Shown: positions 2,174-36,835, counted from the first letter of the stretch. The stretch: DNA of 36,835 bases from Patescibacteria group bacterium (GCA_018818265.1 JAHISN010000057.1:1-36835), one strand, 5' to 3'. Numbers and translations are program-made. Notes: a model not told the origin generated them from the sequence alone.

Positions 2174-2884
2174 TTAGAACGGATCCTCTTTCCCGCTGCC
2201 AATTTCACTTTCCCCTACTTCACCTATTGTCGATTGTATAAAAGTGCCGTAAGAATTTAACTTGGATACCTGAGCTAATATTTCCTCATCGGCCGTACCC
2301 AATCCGATTAACGCCTCTTCCACCGCTCCAAAGCTTTTTGGTAACGGAAGATATGGAAACAGAACATCAGCTGACACATGTAATTTATCCTCATCACTTT
2401 CAATTTCCAAATTATTTAACGAGAGGACACGTTTGGCCCGCTCGGTGTTTTTAAGAAAAGCAACAATTTGCGAAGCATCACCGTCAACAATAACAGGGAC
2501 TTGTAATACCGCTCCACCACCTTGATTTCCTAAACCTTCGGCGCTACTAACAGCCACACTCAGCGTCCCCAGTTCAACTTGCGAATTTCGCGCCAGACTC
2601 TCCAATGCGGCAAATGCAGTCCATTCATGAGCAAAAGAAGGCAAAGCCTCTTCTAAAATGAGAATACTGGTATCCAATACTGCTTCACTTAATGTGCCTA
2701 AAAGTTCAGCCTTTGGCATTAATTTCCGTTCCAAAAGGATTTCTTTCTCTACAATCTCGGCTTTCATTTGATAACTTTCCCTGACCCATGGGTAAATAGC
2801 AAACATCACCACCCCAAACGAAACAATAGTACAAACAACAGGAAACAAAATAGATGGTTGTTTAAAACTAAAAAATGTTTTCAT
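2174..2884 (-). CDS. pilO: Type IV pilus assembly protein PilO-like
   Basis: N-terminal TM then coiled coil, third gene of a pilMNO-order operon. Confidence 0.72.
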   Translation of the reverse strand: MKTFFSFKQPSILFPVVCTIVSFGVVMFAIYPWVRESYQMKAEIVEKEILLERKLMPKAELLGTLSEAVLDTSILILEEALPSFAHEWTAFAALESLARNSQVELGTLSVAVSSAEGLGNQGGGAVLQVPVIVDGDASQIVAFLKNTERAKRVLSLNNLEIESDEDKLHVSADVLFPYLPLPKSFGAVEEALIGLGTADEEILAQVSKLNSYGTFIQSTIGEVGESEIGSGKEDPF

Positions 2885-3429
2885 ATACTTCTCTCCAATG
2901 TTAATACAAAGACAATCTCATTTTTATCCAGTCTAAAGTCGCACAACTTAACAGTAGTACTCCGTATTTCCTCCCAATCATCAAGTACTGTTACCAAATT
3001 ATCTACCTGTTCAAGGGAATCTGTTTGGGCGACAAGTTCGAAAGTTAATGGAGTATTAACCTGATTTAAAGATAGCATACGCACGCCCGGAGGAAGTTTA
3101 CCATTAATACCGTCAACAAAATCTGCAAAGATTCCGCGCTCAACAAAATGTGTGCTCAGAAATTCAACTTTATCCTTTACAGTTAGTAACTTGCCCTCTA
3201 GTCGACGATTGTCTTCATTGTTTATAAATAAATTCTGTTCGATAATCTGAACCTGAAGACCATTCAAACGCTCACGCACCTGGCTATGATAAGTAAAAAC
3301 AACCAACACAGCACCAGCTAGTAGAAGAAGTTCACCAACGCAAATAAGATATATCCTTAGTAAGTGAGCTTTTTTACGATCACTTGCTTGATACTCTGTA
3401 GGAAGAAGATTAACACCTGAAGGGTTCAT
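2881..3429 (-). CDS. pilN: Type IV pilus assembly protein PilN-like
   Basis: VNLLPTEYQ N-terminal motif followed by TM and coiled coil; overlaps pilM. Confidence 0.82.
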   Translation of the reverse strand: MNPSGVNLLPTEYQASDRKKAHLLRIYLICVGELLLLAGAVLVVFTYHSQVRERLNGLQVQIIEQNLFINNEDNRRLEGKLLTVKDKVEFLSTHFVERGIFADFVDGINGKLPPGVRMLSLNQVNTPLTFELVAQTDSLEQVDNLVTVLDDWEEIRSTTVKLCDFRLDKNEIVFVLTLERSI

Positions 3430-4484
3430 ATTCGTTTCAATCCTAAGCCTACCGCCACAGCAAAATGCGTTTGATTTTCGAGACGGTGAACATCTTCCTC
3501 AAACTGCGGTGGCACTTTGACATCAATCCATGGATCAGCAATCTGAACTTCAACTCCCAGGCTTTCCGCAAGATAGACAACCACACCCGGCAAACGTGCC
3601 GTTCCTCCAGTTAAAACCACTCGCTTAACAGGGTGCATAGGTTTCTGAGCCTGATATGATAAAATCGCTTTTTCTATCTCGTTCACAATAATATCAAATA
3701 CCGGCTTAATAACACTAACAACCTTGCCCCCTAATTTGTCTTCTAAAAGCCCATAAGCCCTCTTGTACTCTTCAGCCTGATCCTGCTCAAACCCAAGCTC
3801 ACGAGAAATTACCTTGGCAAGATCACTACCGCTGGTACCAATACTACGAGTGAACTGAATAATACCTTGGTCAACAATACATAAATCTGTAGCTGAAGCT
3901 CCTAAAGAAATAATAAGGGTCACTGGGCAATCTGATCCCTGAGGAGACAATGAACGCGCCATCCCAATAATCTCCGACTCAAAAGCTAATGGTTCCAATC
4001 CGGCCATCCCCAAAATGGTTATGTATCGATCTACAAGAGTTAAAGGGGCAGCAACAAGCAAAATTTTCATCCGCTTGCCTTTACCCCCATCCTGAGTGCC
4101 TGGGACGGTTCCATCTTCTAAAACCATCCAACTAGTCTTGACTTCATCTTTGGGAAGAGGAATAAAACGTTCGACCTCCCATTCCAGAGCGTTATGTAGA
4201 TCCTGCCCCTTAAGCGGGGGAAACTCAATTACACGAGTAAATATTTTAGCTTCGGGAAAAGCAGTAACTACCTTACGCGAGCGTACTTTTGCTTCTTTTA
4301 AAAGCATTTTAATTATTTTAGCAACCTTTTCCTGATCATCCTCTGCTTCTGATTGTAATACATTGAGAGGAGTATCCACGCTACCAAAAGCAACTAATTC
4401 AGGCTTTCCCTCACGGGGATGTAATATTTCCACGACTTTAAAACTGTAGGAACCAATATCTAAACCTAAAATTTGTTGTGTCAC
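3426..4484 (-). CDS. pilM: Type IV pilus assembly ATPase-like protein PilM
   Basis: Actin-like fold motifs LGLDIGSYSFKVVEI, ALEWEVERFIPLP, VVLTGGTARLPGVVVYLAESLG; GTG start. Confidence 0.93.
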   Translation of the reverse strand: MTQQILGLDIGSYSFKVVEILHPREGKPELVAFGSVDTPLNVLQSEAEDDQEKVAKIIKMLLKEAKVRSRKVVTAFPEAKIFTRVIEFPPLKGQDLHNALEWEVERFIPLPKDEVKTSWMVLEDGTVPGTQDGGKGKRMKILLVAAPLTLVDRYITILGMAGLEPLAFESEIIGMARSLSPQGSDCPVTLIISLGASATDLCIVDQGIIQFTRSIGTSGSDLAKVISRELGFEQDQAEEYKRAYGLLEDKLGGKVVSVIKPVFDIIVNEIEKAILSYQAQKPMHPVKRVVLTGGTARLPGVVVYLAESLGVEVQIADPWIDVKVPPQFEEDVHRLENQTHFAVAVGLGLKRI

Positions 4485-32304: not shown

Positions 32305-32847
32305 TTATGCTTCCTCAGTAATCAGTACATATCCATACACAAACCACCAGTAAAAAAGCAACCAGACAATAAAAACAAAAGCGGCAAAATAGTCGTGGAA
32401 AATAATAGCAAAAAGCTGACTGCTATAAATAGCAAGTAGAACTGTAATCGCCATACGAACCAAGTTAACCACGAAAGTTCCTAAAATGCCAATAATAATC
32501 GCCTCTACCTTGGACCAGCGCGTAAAATTGCCCTGCAAACCACCAATGAAAGTAACAAGCAACAGCAACATCCCCTGCCAGCCGATACAGTTCCAGGAAA
32601 GATGCACATAAATATCGTTTATAATCATCCCATCGGGCACGGCAACAAAATCCAGATTAAAGGGAAGAAGCAAAACTCCAATAAGTTTAACCTCTCCGGG
32701 CACGATTATTTTCTCAATAATCTGATACAGCCTAGTACTTTCCACGATGCGGGTCATCAGTTCGTTAAGAGTGGTCACAAAAGGCAGTATTGCCAAAATT
32801 ACCGCGGCGAGGATGAAAATTGTGAGAAAAGTTTGTTTTTTATGCAT
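32305..32847 (-). CDS. Exosortase/archaeosortase-like polytopic membrane protein
   Basis: Cys87 in SWNCIGWQG, Arg131 in NLVRMAI, His151 in IIFHDYF, each in or next to TM helices; 180 aa. Confidence 0.77.
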   Translation of the reverse strand: MHKKQTFLTIFILAAVILAILPFVTTLNELMTRIVESTRLYQIIEKIIVPGEVKLIGVLLLPFNLDFVAVPDGMIINDIYVHLSWNCIGWQGMLLLLVTFIGGLQGNFTRWSKVEAIIIGILGTFVVNLVRMAITVLLAIYSSQLFAIIFHDYFAAFVFIVWLLFYWWFVYGYVLITEEA

Positions 32848-32851
32848 AAGG

Positions 32852-32884
32852 CGTAAGTTACTTAAGATACTTAGGTTTCTTACG
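32852..32884. repeat. 33-bp near-palindrome, copy 1
   Basis: CGTAAGTTACTTAAGATACTTAGGTTTCTTACG. Confidence 0.88.
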
Positions 32885-33443
32885 AAACACGCCTCGCGCG
32901 CAAGCGGCGATGGTAGAGGTTCTCGGCATAACCACCTTCAGTTTCGTGTTTTTTCTCCAACGATTTTACTTGCCTATACAATAAGTAAGTGGCCTGGTGG
33001 CATAGAGTTAACAGTAGGTTAGTCGCTTCTTCAGGGTCCTTGGGCAGCTTTAGCCGGGCCAAAAGCGCTTGCGCTTTTGGCTCGCGTAAGTCTCTTAAGA
33101 TACTTAAGTTTCTTACGATTCGCGCGCTCCGCGCGCGAAACACTCGCACACGCGGATCGTCTTTAGACCACTGCGAAAGTTTCCGCTGTCTCAGAAAATC
33201 CTCCAAGTTTCCCAGAAGCTCCTCAATACTAGCCTTGGCCACATTAGTCAGCTTAATGCCTGTCTTTAGACTGGTAGCCATCCCCTCTGAGCCCTCAACA
33301 ATGTTTTGTTTGCCGCTACGGGCGGCGCCATTCATCTGCTCCTTTAATTTCCAACTCCTGACCCAACGCTCACAAAACTCGACCGTTAGGTCGTAAATAA
33401 TCAGCGCGAACCAATATGTAAAGAGTTTTTTGTAGGGTTGCAT
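32880..33443 (-). CDS. Four-helix-bundle protein (23S rRNA IVS/TIGR02436-like) with in-frame palindrome
   Basis: LTVEFCERWV...QMNGAARSGKQNIVEGSEGMATSLKTGIKLTNVAKASIEELLGNLEDFLRQR. Confidence 0.72.
   Translation of the reverse strand: MQPYKKLFTYWFALIIYDLTVEFCERWVRSWKLKEQMNGAARSGKQNIVEGSEGMATSLKTGIKLTNVAKASIEELLGNLEDFLRQRKLSQWSKDDPRVRVFRARSARIVRNLSILRDLREPKAQALLARLKLPKDPEEATNLLLTLCHQATYLLYRQVKSLEKKHETEGGYAENLYHRRLRARRVS
33058..33144. repeat. Three consecutive palindromes inside the four-helix-bundle gene, including 33-bp near-palindrome copy 2
   Basis: GCCAAAAGCGC-TT-GCGCTTTTGGC; CGTAAGTCTCTTAAGATACTTAAGTTTCTTACG (33085-33117); TTCGCGCGC-TCC-GCGCGCGAA. Confidence 0.9.
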
Positions 33444-33508
33444 CGTAAGTCCTGCCCTGAACCGAGCTTGCTCTGGTTCGGGGCTCCTAAGATACTTAAG
33501 TTACTTAA
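33444..33508. repeat. Copy 3 of the CTTAAGATACTTAAG palindrome, interrupted by another hairpin
   Basis: CGTAAGT-[CCTGCCCTGAACCGAGCTTGCTCTGGTTCGGGGCTC]-CTAAGATACTTAAGTTACTTAA. Confidence 0.75.
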
Positions 33509-36500
33509 CCATCTTATGCTTTTTTCTTTTCTTGCGCAAAGCTCCGGGTACAAAAAATACCACGCTCATCAACAACCATAACCTTTCTGGAATAACCACC
33601 AAGGTCTGATCAGTACTAGCCACATTGGCAAGATACTGCAGAATCAGCATATCGGTTCTAATTAAATTCTCTACCGGACTGGTGGTGTAGGTTCCTGATG
33701 AAGCATTAAGCGAGGCTCTGATGTAATAAAGGTCGGTCGAACCATTGACTGAGTATTTGCGCCAGTTAGTCGGATTGGCGGTCCAATAAACCGCGCCGTC
33801 TTGAGTGAGGTTGCTGGTACCATCAGTAAAGCCGGTGATTGATTCAAGACTGGCCCAGGCAGTACCGTTCCAATATTCCCAATCTAGATTTAAAGTTCCA
33901 CCGGTAGCACCAGCAGTTTCAAGGTCAACATTCACTCCCGAAAACATAGAGTCGGCGCTAAAGAAAACATATTCCCCCCTATTTGAGGCATCAACCGGCA
34001 CAAAGTCCAAAGTATAATCTTGGGCTTCGGAGAAAAGGTATTCGGAAGAATCGGCTGTATTGCCGCCTTGGGCTAAGGTAGTTGGCTCATCATCGCTGCC
34101 GCCAAAGATCATGATTTCGTCATAAATTCCATCTGCATGGTCACTAATATTAGTGTTGTCAAAATATATTGTTCCATTATCAATATCAAAAGTATTTTTA
34201 AAATCGTCATTATGGGAATGGGTTGGCTCTTGGCCGTTAATAAATATTCTTAGTGTCTCGCCTGATGAAGCTCCTGAATCCCAAGTAACCCTAAGATGTA
34301 CCCACTCTCCAGCAGTAAAGGAATAATCGGTGGGAGCAATCAAAGTATGGAAATAGTCGGCGGCGCCTTGCTCTCCATAGACAAATAAATCATTGCCATC
34401 AACCGCATTTTCTTTAGATAAAACCAAGTAATCGCCTGTTACCGCATCTCTAGCTCTAAATAAGTGATGGAGTAATCCATCAGTATGGCTCCAATTGGGT
34501 TTAAACCAAAATTCTATTGAGCCATTGATTTGGTCAAAATTAGAACTAATATCAGTAATTTCGATTTCGTCATCTGAAGCATTCACCCGGAATCCGTTCC
34601 CGTATTTACCGGGCACAATATCATCTGATTCTATGGTAGCTGTGCTGTAAGTAGTGCCCACGTCCGGAGTAGATATGGCTGAAATGCTTTCACAGCTTGA
34701 GTACCATAATAGCTCGTCGGCAAAATAAGCGTCGGAAATAGGCACATAGTCCACATTATAATCCGTCCCTTCGGTCAGACCTGAACCCTCCATAGTGACT
34801 GAAGAAGGCTTGTCATTCAATTGATACTTTCTAATCTTGTACATCGGTTTATGGCGGTTCATTGAAGAAACCACCGTTCCAATGGCATGGCCGATAACAG
34901 AAAGTTCTCCGCTGGCAGGGATACCAGTAAAGGTAGTCGCCGTTGTGCCCGTATAGGAAAACTTGTCGCCGTCAATATAGGCCACGCTGGGAGCGGTAGG
35001 AAAACCGGTAGTTGAACCAACCGTAATCGAGGTAACACCGGCAACTACCGCCGTGGTGGCAACAGCCGTCGAAGCATTTGCTCCCCCATCAATATCCAAA
35101 TTCACTTGCGAGCCCGAAGCCTCAACCGTATAAACTCCTTCGGCTTCGTTGTAGTGGTCAGGGATGAAGCCGGTGGTCCAGGTGGGTGTACCATACAAGG
35201 TACAATCATTATTGTTGCTTGTTTCATCATAATGAGTAGTACCCGTATTTTCGTCTACTTTCCAATATCCCACCAAATTAGACTCGTTGCCGGTTAACTC
35301 CTTATACATATTTTGTTGAAGATCACTAGCTGACCTCACCGTACTCCACATTCTCCCCTCATCCAGAACCCCGTAAAAGTTAGCCCCAAACCGAAGATTA
35401 CTAAGCGCATCACTCCCAGGTGAACCAACTCCTGCCCCGGAAGTCGCCACATTTACTCCATTCTGAAAAAGTCTAACAATATTATCTGCAGTACTCCAAG
35501 TCATGGTCACATGAACCCATTGCTTGGTCGGAATAGCAGTCGTAGTAACAGCCTCGGCATCCGTATCAGTATAATCAATGAATCCGCTTAAATACCCAGT
35601 AGTAGCATTAACTCTAAGCCGTTTGGTGGCTAAATTCTTATAAAAGATTGAACGATTAGTAGCGTCAATAGCTTCAACATATATCCAAGCTTCCCAAGTC
35701 AAGGCGGTTAAATCATTAATTGAAGAATCCAGCCCACATTCAGTGTAATAACCCAAAGTAGAAGGAAACTTCAACCCCGGGGAGGCAGGCGCATCATTCC
35801 ACTCACTCCCAGTAGTAAAATCCAAAATATCCGGGTTTCTGAAGTCATTGATATAGCCTTCCCGCTCGGCTTCAGTATCCAGATCGTCTTCGGCAAGCAT
35901 CAGGAAAAACCACTTGGCATAGTGTTTACCAATGGTTAGATGATCTTGTTCCCGGGTAGTAATCAAATCTTGGGTTGTTCCTCCGGAAATAACATTGTTT
36001 TCATCCCAAGCCCAAGTATCAGAACCACCGGTATCATCGTACCAACCAGCTCGCATTACACCAACAAAGGCATCCTGGTAGGTATCTGAGCCGGTACCGG
36101 GAAGGACCACATATTTATTGGAATCTTCAAACACTGCCCCGTCAGTGCTTGTATTGCTTTCTGTGCTTCCATCTCCGTAAAGAATAGTAGGGGTAGCAGT
36201 ATCGTCAAAAGCAGCATCAGTTACGTCAGCATATACTCCCAGCCAGTCGTATCCATTTAAACCAACAGCGGTATCTAGGGTTATTCCCGTACTTCGGAAG
36301 TCAGTCATTGTTTCCACAAACATGCCTTCCGTAGTAAACGTGTAATCCTCAACAACTGTAATTTTATCCGTTCCATCGGTTAAGCAAGCTCCTCCGGCAG
36401 CAGTATCAAAACAACCCTCAACTCTTATTTTTACACGGACACTGCTCGATTCTAAAATAGTAGTTGTCCTAGAGGCATCCCACCGCAACAAATACCTTAC

Positions 36501-36835
36501 AGTCGCCTCTACTATATGGGGGCCAACTATTTCATGAGTAGGATTGGGACTGCTATCACTCTGAGCTCGGTCATAGAACAATATATAATCTTGAGTGTCC
36601 CCCGTCTCCATAATCGCCCGGTAGCGATTGGGAACATCGATTTGGATAGAACCTTCGGAAAGACGGATTGCCTCTGAAGTAATCACAAAAGTCTGGTCAT
36701 TGGTAGAAATGTCACCCAGGTATTGGAAAAGGAGAATGTCGGTCCATGCTCTTTTGATCACCGGCGCAGTAGTATAGGCCCCTGAAGAAGTACCTCTCAC
36801 CCAATAAAGAGTTCTCTCGCCGGTGGAATCACCCA
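33501..36835 (-). CDS. Giant surface protein with at least two LamG/ConA-like domains and a C-terminal CTERM-like sorting signal; 5' end beyond the window
   Basis: LamG-like segments (LTWEAWIYVEAIDATNRSIFYK...; GSIEFWFKPNWSHTDGLLHHLFRA...); C-terminus VVIPERLWLLMSVVFFVPGALRKKRKKHKMVK; frame stays open to the window edge. Confidence 0.85.
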   Translation of the reverse strand, partial: GDSTGERTLYWVRGTSSGAYTTAPVIKRAWTDILLFQYLGDISTNDQTFVITSEAIRLSEGSIQIDVPNRYRAIMETGDTQDYILFYDRAQSDSSPNPTHEIVGPHIVEATVRYLLRWDASRTTTILESSSVRVKIRVEGCFDTAAGGACLTDGTDKITVVEDYTFTTEGMFVETMTDFRSTGITLDTAVGLNGYDWLGVYADVTDAAFDDTATPTILYGDGSTESNTSTDGAVFEDSNKYVVLPGTGSDTYQDAFVGVMRAGWYDDTGGSDTWAWDENNVISGGTTQDLITTREQDHLTIGKHYAKWFFLMLAEDDLDTEAEREGYINDFRNPDILDFTTGSEWNDAPASPGLKFPSTLGYYTECGLDSSINDLTALTWEAWIYVEAIDATNRSIFYKNLATKRLRVNATTGYLSGFIDYTDTDAEAVTTTAIPTKQWVHVTMTWSTADNIVRLFQNGVNVATSGAGVGSPGSDALSNLRFGANFYGVLDEGRMWSTVRSASDLQQNMYKELTGNESNLVGYWKVDENTGTTHYDETSNNNDCTLYGTPTWTTGFIPDHYNEAEGVYTVEASGSQVNLDIDGGANASTAVATTAVVAGVTSITVGSTTGFPTAPSVAYIDGDKFSYTGTTATTFTGIPASGELSVIGHAIGTVVSSMNRHKPMYKIRKYQLNDKPSSVTMEGSGLTEGTDYNVDYVPISDAYFADELLWYSSCESISAISTPDVGTTYSTATIESDDIVPGKYGNGFRVNASDDEIEITDISSNFDQINGSIEFWFKPNWSHTDGLLHHLFRARDAVTGDYLVLSKENAVDGNDLFVYGEQGAADYFHTLIAPTDYSFTAGEWVHLRVTWDSGASSGETLRIFINGQEPTHSHNDDFKNTFDIDNGTIYFDNTNISDHADGIYDEIMIFGGSDDEPTTLAQGGNTADSSEYLFSEAQDYTLDFVPVDASNRGEYVFFSADSMFSGVNVDLETAGATGGTLNLDWEYWNGTAWASLESITGFTDGTSNLTQDGAVYWTANPTNWRKYSVNGSTDLYYIRASLNASSGTYTTSPVENLIRTDMLILQYLANVASTDQTLVVIPERLWLLMSVVFFVPGALRKKRKKHKMVK

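Follow-up and report, generated by a model that had tools for sequence, protein, structure and literature searches.

Three genes lie in tight order on the minus strand at one end of a contig from a Patescibacteria group bacterium, and they raise the question of whether they encode an exosortase with a dedicated substrate, and what such an enzyme would sort. The window, meaning the whole stretch of DNA that was analysed, is 36,835 nucleotides long and constitutes all of contig C7 of the source assembly (GCA_018818265.1, JAHISN010000057.1). A first-pass annotation, made from the sequence alone, had proposed an exosortase operon of unnamed type comprising a giant LamG protein that ends in an IPERLW-like signal, a four-helix-bundle protein, and a 180-aa polytopic protein carrying Cys, Arg and His residues. 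All three open reading frames (ORFs) are found where it had placed them, and the three residues and the tail sequence had been read exactly (Table 1). The genes rpsO and pnp come after the gene for the 180-aa protein.

The explanation that we favour, with good confidence in it as a whole, is that an unnamed Cys/Arg/His exosortase acts on a dedicated giant substrate in which a glycan synthase, an ectodomain and a sorting tag are joined, that this substrate is cut near a PE dipeptide, and that it is probably then transferred.

Table 1. Features of the locus, in window coordinates
Feature	Position	Strand	Basis
Exosortase/archaeosortase-family membrane protein, 180 aa	32305..32847	-	TIGR04178 match, homologues, AF2 model
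Cys87 codon, candidate nucleophile (NCIGWQG)	32587..32589	-	C in 79/80 aligned sequences (somewhat biased by search pattern)
Arg131 codon (NLVRM)	32455..32457	-	R in 80/80 aligned sequences
His151 codon (FHDYF)	32395..32397	-	H in 80/80 aligned sequences
Four-helix-bundle protein, 187 aa, between substrate and exosortase genes	32880..33443	-	TIGR04258/TIGR02436
C-terminal part of giant substrate, 1,110 aa, runs off contig end	33501..36835	-	58% identity to intact orthologue L037
LamG-like (Laminin_G_3) domain of ectodomain	35319..35711	-	Pfam PF13385, E 5.1e-21, residues 375-505
IPERLW, which includes the [VI]PE motif of the tag	33576..33593	-	No change of P or E among 38 tails
Tag part with hydrophobic segment and basic RKKRKKHKMVK tail	33504..33581	-	Sequence, hydropathy

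The 180-aa membrane protein

Judged by its sequence, the 180-aa protein is a member of the exosortase/archaeosortase superfamily with the Cys/Arg/His set in its membrane helices. The NCBIfam signature for this superfamily, TIGR04178, scores it at 34.8 bits against a cut-off of 23 and is matched by all 52 of the aligned relatives. The Pfam model EpsH (PF09721) leaves the protein below its cut-off (16.5 of 25.7), so a search with EpsH alone would miss it. The three candidate catalytic residues are conserved almost without exception (Table 1). The conservation of Cys87 is somewhat biased by the fact that this residue falls partly within the pattern used to search for homologues; Arg131 and His151 lie outside every search pattern. 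The sources are almost all metagenome-assembled, and related loci are non-independent samples. An AlphaFold2 model of the protein is mostly helical and confident (pLDDT 89.4, pTM 0.81), and searches of solved structures by sequence and by fold found no meaningful relative of the exosortase.

The claim of an unnamed type also holds for the proteins that were scored individually. Among named models, ArtC comes closest to the window protein, at 20.7 bits of the 100 required, and XrtM (19.4 of 125) and XrtX (13.7 of 170) are likewise unmet. The exosortases of loci L067, L079 and L115 also reach no named Xrt, Art or Crt cut-off. This comparison is limited to individually scored proteins, with only E-values available for other relatives. 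The best reading is that the protein is an exosortase of a new, unnamed subfamily that is dedicated to a glycan-synthase/ectodomain substrate.

Distribution of relatives

An alignment-based scan located exosortase homologues at 79 loci in named genomes. A scan of genome contigs with a single sequence returned no homologue, and the alignment scan of the same contigs succeeded. Among the 97 genomes searched, homologues are present in five, including the source genome (G000, G001, G002, G020 and G082); another genome, G054, carries a different exosortase-family protein. Representatives from the candidate phyla radiation (CPR) belong to CPR3, Woesebacteria, Curtissbacteria, Gottesmanbacteria, Daviesbacteria, Levybacteria, Chisholmbacteria and Nealsonbacteria. 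Others are found in Chloroflexota (one record is labelled Dehalococcoidaceae), Dormibacterota, Bathyarchaeota, and Aigarchaeota/Terraquivivens. A polytopic protein of about 700 aa with no Pfam match (L022:3049-5148 and relatives) is encoded near the exosortase at 21 of the 79 loci and is a possible further component.

The sorting tag and its gene association

The 1,110-aa open frame (33501-36833) ends VVIPERLWLLMSVVFFVPGALRKKRKKHKMVK, and this ending has the three parts of a tripartite sorting tag. The tag predicted by the first-pass annotation is real, but IPERLW itself is not conserved. Proline and glutamate are the only positions that never vary among the collected tails, and the motif is thus [VI]PE. 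The comparison covered 2,527 ORFs from the related loci. A C-terminus built of [VILMAT]PE, a hydrophobic segment and a basic tail is present in 59 of them, and replacing PE in this rule by another dipeptide gives at most 7, no more than an eighth of the PE count. None of the NCBIfam tag models describes these tails. The PEP-CTERM model TIGR02595 does not match the window tail, and only 1 of the 38 tails touches it (E 0.015).

A tagged protein is encoded on the same strand as the exosortase at 66 of the 79 loci, usually directly upstream. A 35-position tail profile accounts for 61 of these loci and the rule above for 5 more. All 65 matches to the profile lie on the strand of the exosortase, 64 of the 65 are C-terminal, and most end 0-80 nucleotides ahead of the exosortase gene. 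Because the profile was made largely from the tails of these same loci, it is adjacency and strand that serve as independent evidence. The window tail, which is itself in the profile, matches it with an E-value of 1.4e-11. No linked tag was found at the remaining 13 of the 79 loci, some of which are cut by contig ends or masked. These results establish the pairing of the two genes, and with the TIGR04178 score and the conserved residues they uphold the proposed exosortase identity.

When the 97 genomes were searched with the profile at E < 1e-7, only G000 (two matches), G002, G020, G082 (three matches) and G096 were recovered. Strong tags are therefore found in four of the five exosortase-bearing genomes and in one other, with between one and three substrates detected in each. 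The missing genome, G001, probably lacks a match because contig ends interrupt its giant genes; in both G001 and G002 the exosortase and its substrate lie on separate contigs. Contig C27 of G096 (L170:1961-7522) carries a strong VPERLL tag and no detectable exosortase, which could reflect a contig edge, an assembly gap or loss. The source genome has a second tagged giant protein on contig C31 (L169:2444-6595), with a tail beginning IVVPEYLLMF. Neither this tag nor that of G096 belongs to the set from which the profile was built. The narrower pattern [VI]PExxW matches only the window tag in the source genome, and VPEYLL on contig C31 was found by the profile.

The first-pass annotation had held that its reading would fail if no exosortase HMM matched, if Cys/Arg/His were not conserved in homologues, or if homologues occurred without any tagged protein. 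None of these outcomes was encountered.

The substrate is a fragment of a larger synthase-ectodomain protein

An intact orthologue of the substrate, from G002 (L037:2392-13167), is 3,592 aa long and ends VVVPEYLWPFLGVVPALPGLLRRRRKKRKI. The window frame corresponds to its residues from about 2518 to 3583, and only the C-terminal third of the substrate is present in the window because the contig ends there. The description of a giant LamG protein is thus correct as to the LamG domain and the tail, but the frame is a fragment, and LamG is one domain within a much larger ectodomain. In the intact orthologue, N-terminal domains of the HTH_Tnp type and a family 2 glycosyltransferase (GT2) domain are present, LamG is near the C-terminus, and a VPE tag ends the chain.

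Contig C51 of the source genome ends inside the N-terminal part of such a gene, covering orthologue residues 5-1034 at 56% identity. From these alignments we infer that the window gene is probably split between contigs C51 and C7. No overlap between the ends of C51 and the window was found, which leaves orthology as the basis of the join. In the same genome, C49, with HTH and GT2 domains, and C31, with a tagged C-terminus, represent another split giant protein; these two might be opposite ends of one protein, for which joining has not been demonstrated.

In a scan of 31 partner proteins, 24 match GT2. C-terminal fragments are among those without a match, but so are a few partners, such as those of L047 and L065, that seem complete and yet lack the GT2 signature. 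The D, DxD, TED and QxxRW motifs are invariant or nearly so in complete partners, and GT2 features are also present on contig C51. A model of a Chloroflexota partner (pLDDT 65.5) matches the folds of BcsA and hyaluronan synthases with E-values of 1e-16 to 1e-13. These results demonstrate that the majority of complete partners are processive glycan synthases of the GT2 family, similar to cellulose and hyaluronan synthases, that are fused to a tagged ectodomain. By hydropathy, a pair of helices precedes GT2, which is followed by two to three more, then a single helix, the ectodomain and the tag helix. This arrangement is consistent with secretion of the ectodomain if the N-terminus is cytosolic, although the topology is an inference.

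An HTH domain is located at the N-terminus of 9 of the 31 partners. Transposase-type HTH domains (HTH_Tnp_1, HTH_28) precede the membrane glycan synthase in four CPR examples (L037:2392-13167, L026:10881-17378, L131:2329-5487 and L132:1-7767), an odd fusion by which the membrane might be linked to DNA. The tagged synthase in the record labelled Dehalococcoidaceae (L067:5973-9335) carries REC and MshEN domains at its N-terminus and a VPERLW tag that is nearly that of the window. These domains suggest control by phosphorylation and perhaps by c-di-GMP. A prepilin-like protein from contig C55 of the source genome (L039:3634-5388) has a region that is 53% identical to the window ectodomain and carries no tag.

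The four-helix-bundle gene

The 187-aa protein passes two NCBIfam cut-offs, TIGR04258 (58.1 bits; cut-off 40) and TIGR02436 (27.5 bits; cut-off 24). The same gene directly follows the substrate gene in G002, and L026 has another type. We considered the gene as a core component and rejected it in this role, given that relatives occur at only 4 of the 79 loci, one of them on the opposite strand. The gene is probably a hitchhiker. The notion of a dedicated pair is borne out, but the partner of the exosortase is the glycan-synthase/ectodomain fusion and the intervening gene is incidental.

Do the enzyme and tag belong together?

A hydrophobic stretch followed by a basic tail is common among C-terminal anchors, and exosortases are often encoded in polysaccharide loci (PMC12188702). 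The tail might accordingly be an ordinary membrane anchor whose exosortase neighbour reflects nothing more than the clustering of polysaccharide genes. Several observations make this very improbable. The PE dipeptide is invariant despite dissimilar flanks, and the tag is nearly absent from genomes without the present exosortase. Moreover, in two near-identical Bathyarchaeota genes (L079:3892-5313 and L082:8557-9978), an exosortase, an ectodomain and a VPE tag form one chain, and the exosortase part of L079 exceeds the TIGR04178 cut-off.

The flavour of the tag also follows the exosortase clade. An 'EF[AS]TVPE' flavour, found at eight CPR loci from several candidate phyla, requires one change on the exosortase tree, compared with a mean of 7.2 for shuffled labels (0 of 500 shuffles as low), and genomes with this flavour often bear other flavours beside other exosortase paralogues. 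A second flavour also clusters (2 changes versus 3.9; 0 of 500), and that of the window clusters weakly (4 versus 5.7; 19 of 500). The sorting of flavours, done by eye from the tails, came before the tree; the rules for counting were written afterwards.

As a separate observation, the Bathyarchaeota fusion gene (L079, L082) adjoins a second exosortase and a GT2-tag protein.

Proposed mechanism and alternatives

We propose that the substrate is a polyprotein composed of a cytosolic HTH (in CPR), two membrane helices, a GT2 synthase, further helices, the ectodomain and the tag. The tag, consisting of [VI]PE, a membrane helix and a basic tail, would place PE at the outer face of the membrane. The exosortase would cut near PE and leave the C-terminal helix behind, and the new C-terminus would probably be transferred to an acceptor, which would attach the ectodomain either to the cell surface or to the nascent polysaccharide. 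Cleavage through a cysteine acyl-enzyme and subsequent transfer are inferred from the family, and neither has been observed here. For ArtA, the corresponding model was called speculative by its authors (PMC7157517).

The ectodomain is already tethered by the helices of the synthase, and ordinary anchoring would therefore not suffice to explain sorting. The same fact favours the possibility that the exosortase is a protease only, which takes off the C-terminal helix, whether to activate the synthase or to free the end of the ectodomain, without any transfer. The upstream helices would retain the ectodomain and no new anchor would be needed, and none of the genes that could make an acceptor recurs at all loci examined, although this is a limited test. 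However, the characterised relative ArtA yields lipid-anchored products (PMC7157517), and there are no direct data for the present system; we regard the protease-only possibility as somewhat unlikely. Alternatively, signal peptidase might also cut past the last synthase helix, so that the synthase would be freed and the ectodomain secreted, to be anchored afterwards by the exosortase in the usual manner. AxA-like sites do follow this helix in most members, but they are no better than those in shuffled segments (combined p 0.43), and the proposal is doubtful.

Returning to cleavage with transfer, one specific form is that the exosortase joins the ectodomain to the polysaccharide made by the GT2 domain of the same protein, or to its lipid-linked precursor, with the HTH adding feedback from membrane to DNA in CPR. 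We offer this as speculation that is quite unlikely to be correct. If true, the substrate would be a self-contained synthase-scaffold-tag polyprotein that produces a protein-capped surface glycan.

Comparison with known systems

Until now, exosortases have been connected with exopolysaccharides mainly through neighbouring genes, and for most of them neither the acceptor nor the purpose of sorting is known. Here the connection is a covalent fusion in which the glycan synthase itself bears the tag and each enzyme has few substrates, and this type of connection spans CPR bacteria, Chloroflexota, Dormibacterota and archaea. With only two genes, the system is small enough to serve for tests of cleavage, of the acceptor and of cognate specificity. 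It also suggests a module for building the cell surface in CPR bacteria, a group with poorly understood envelopes, and it contributes a sorting tag outside all NCBIfam models.

We found no paper on an exosortase in Patescibacteria or on the present system, although subscription papers were mostly beyond the search and an earlier description is possible. The pairing of an exosortase with a glycan-synthase fusion was matched by no library or paper searched.

Exosortases are generally located in polysaccharide loci (PMC12188702; PMC1569441). The nearest known system in content is XrtG of Lactobacillaceae (TIGR03110, TIGR03111), which also has a small exosortase, a dedicated tagged protein and GT2. 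In lactobacilli the exosortase, the Firmicu-CTERM protein and two glycosyltransferases are the products of separate genes (PMC12854382), whereas the tag and glycosyltransferase are in one protein here. The XrtG profiles have weak similarity to the present proteins, and none of those individually scored meets the cut-offs (XrtG, at most 21.2 of 102.75; TIGR03111, at most 30.9 of 363.95).

The PEP-CTERM/EpsH-XrtA system likewise has a tripartite tag with P-E, a helix and a basic tail, and a link to exopolysaccharide (PMC1569441), but the present tag lacks PEP and one to three substrates were seen in each genome. The archaeosortases ArtA, ArtC and ArtF share the superfamily signature and the Cys/Arg/His set, although the tag described here is not PGF and the partner is a glycan synthase. 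Finally, the catalytic part of the partner resembles BcsA, hyaluronan synthase and PgaC in its D, DxD, TED and QxxRW motifs and its membrane-channel fold, and it differs from them in the addition of a large tagged ectodomain and, often in CPR, an HTH domain.
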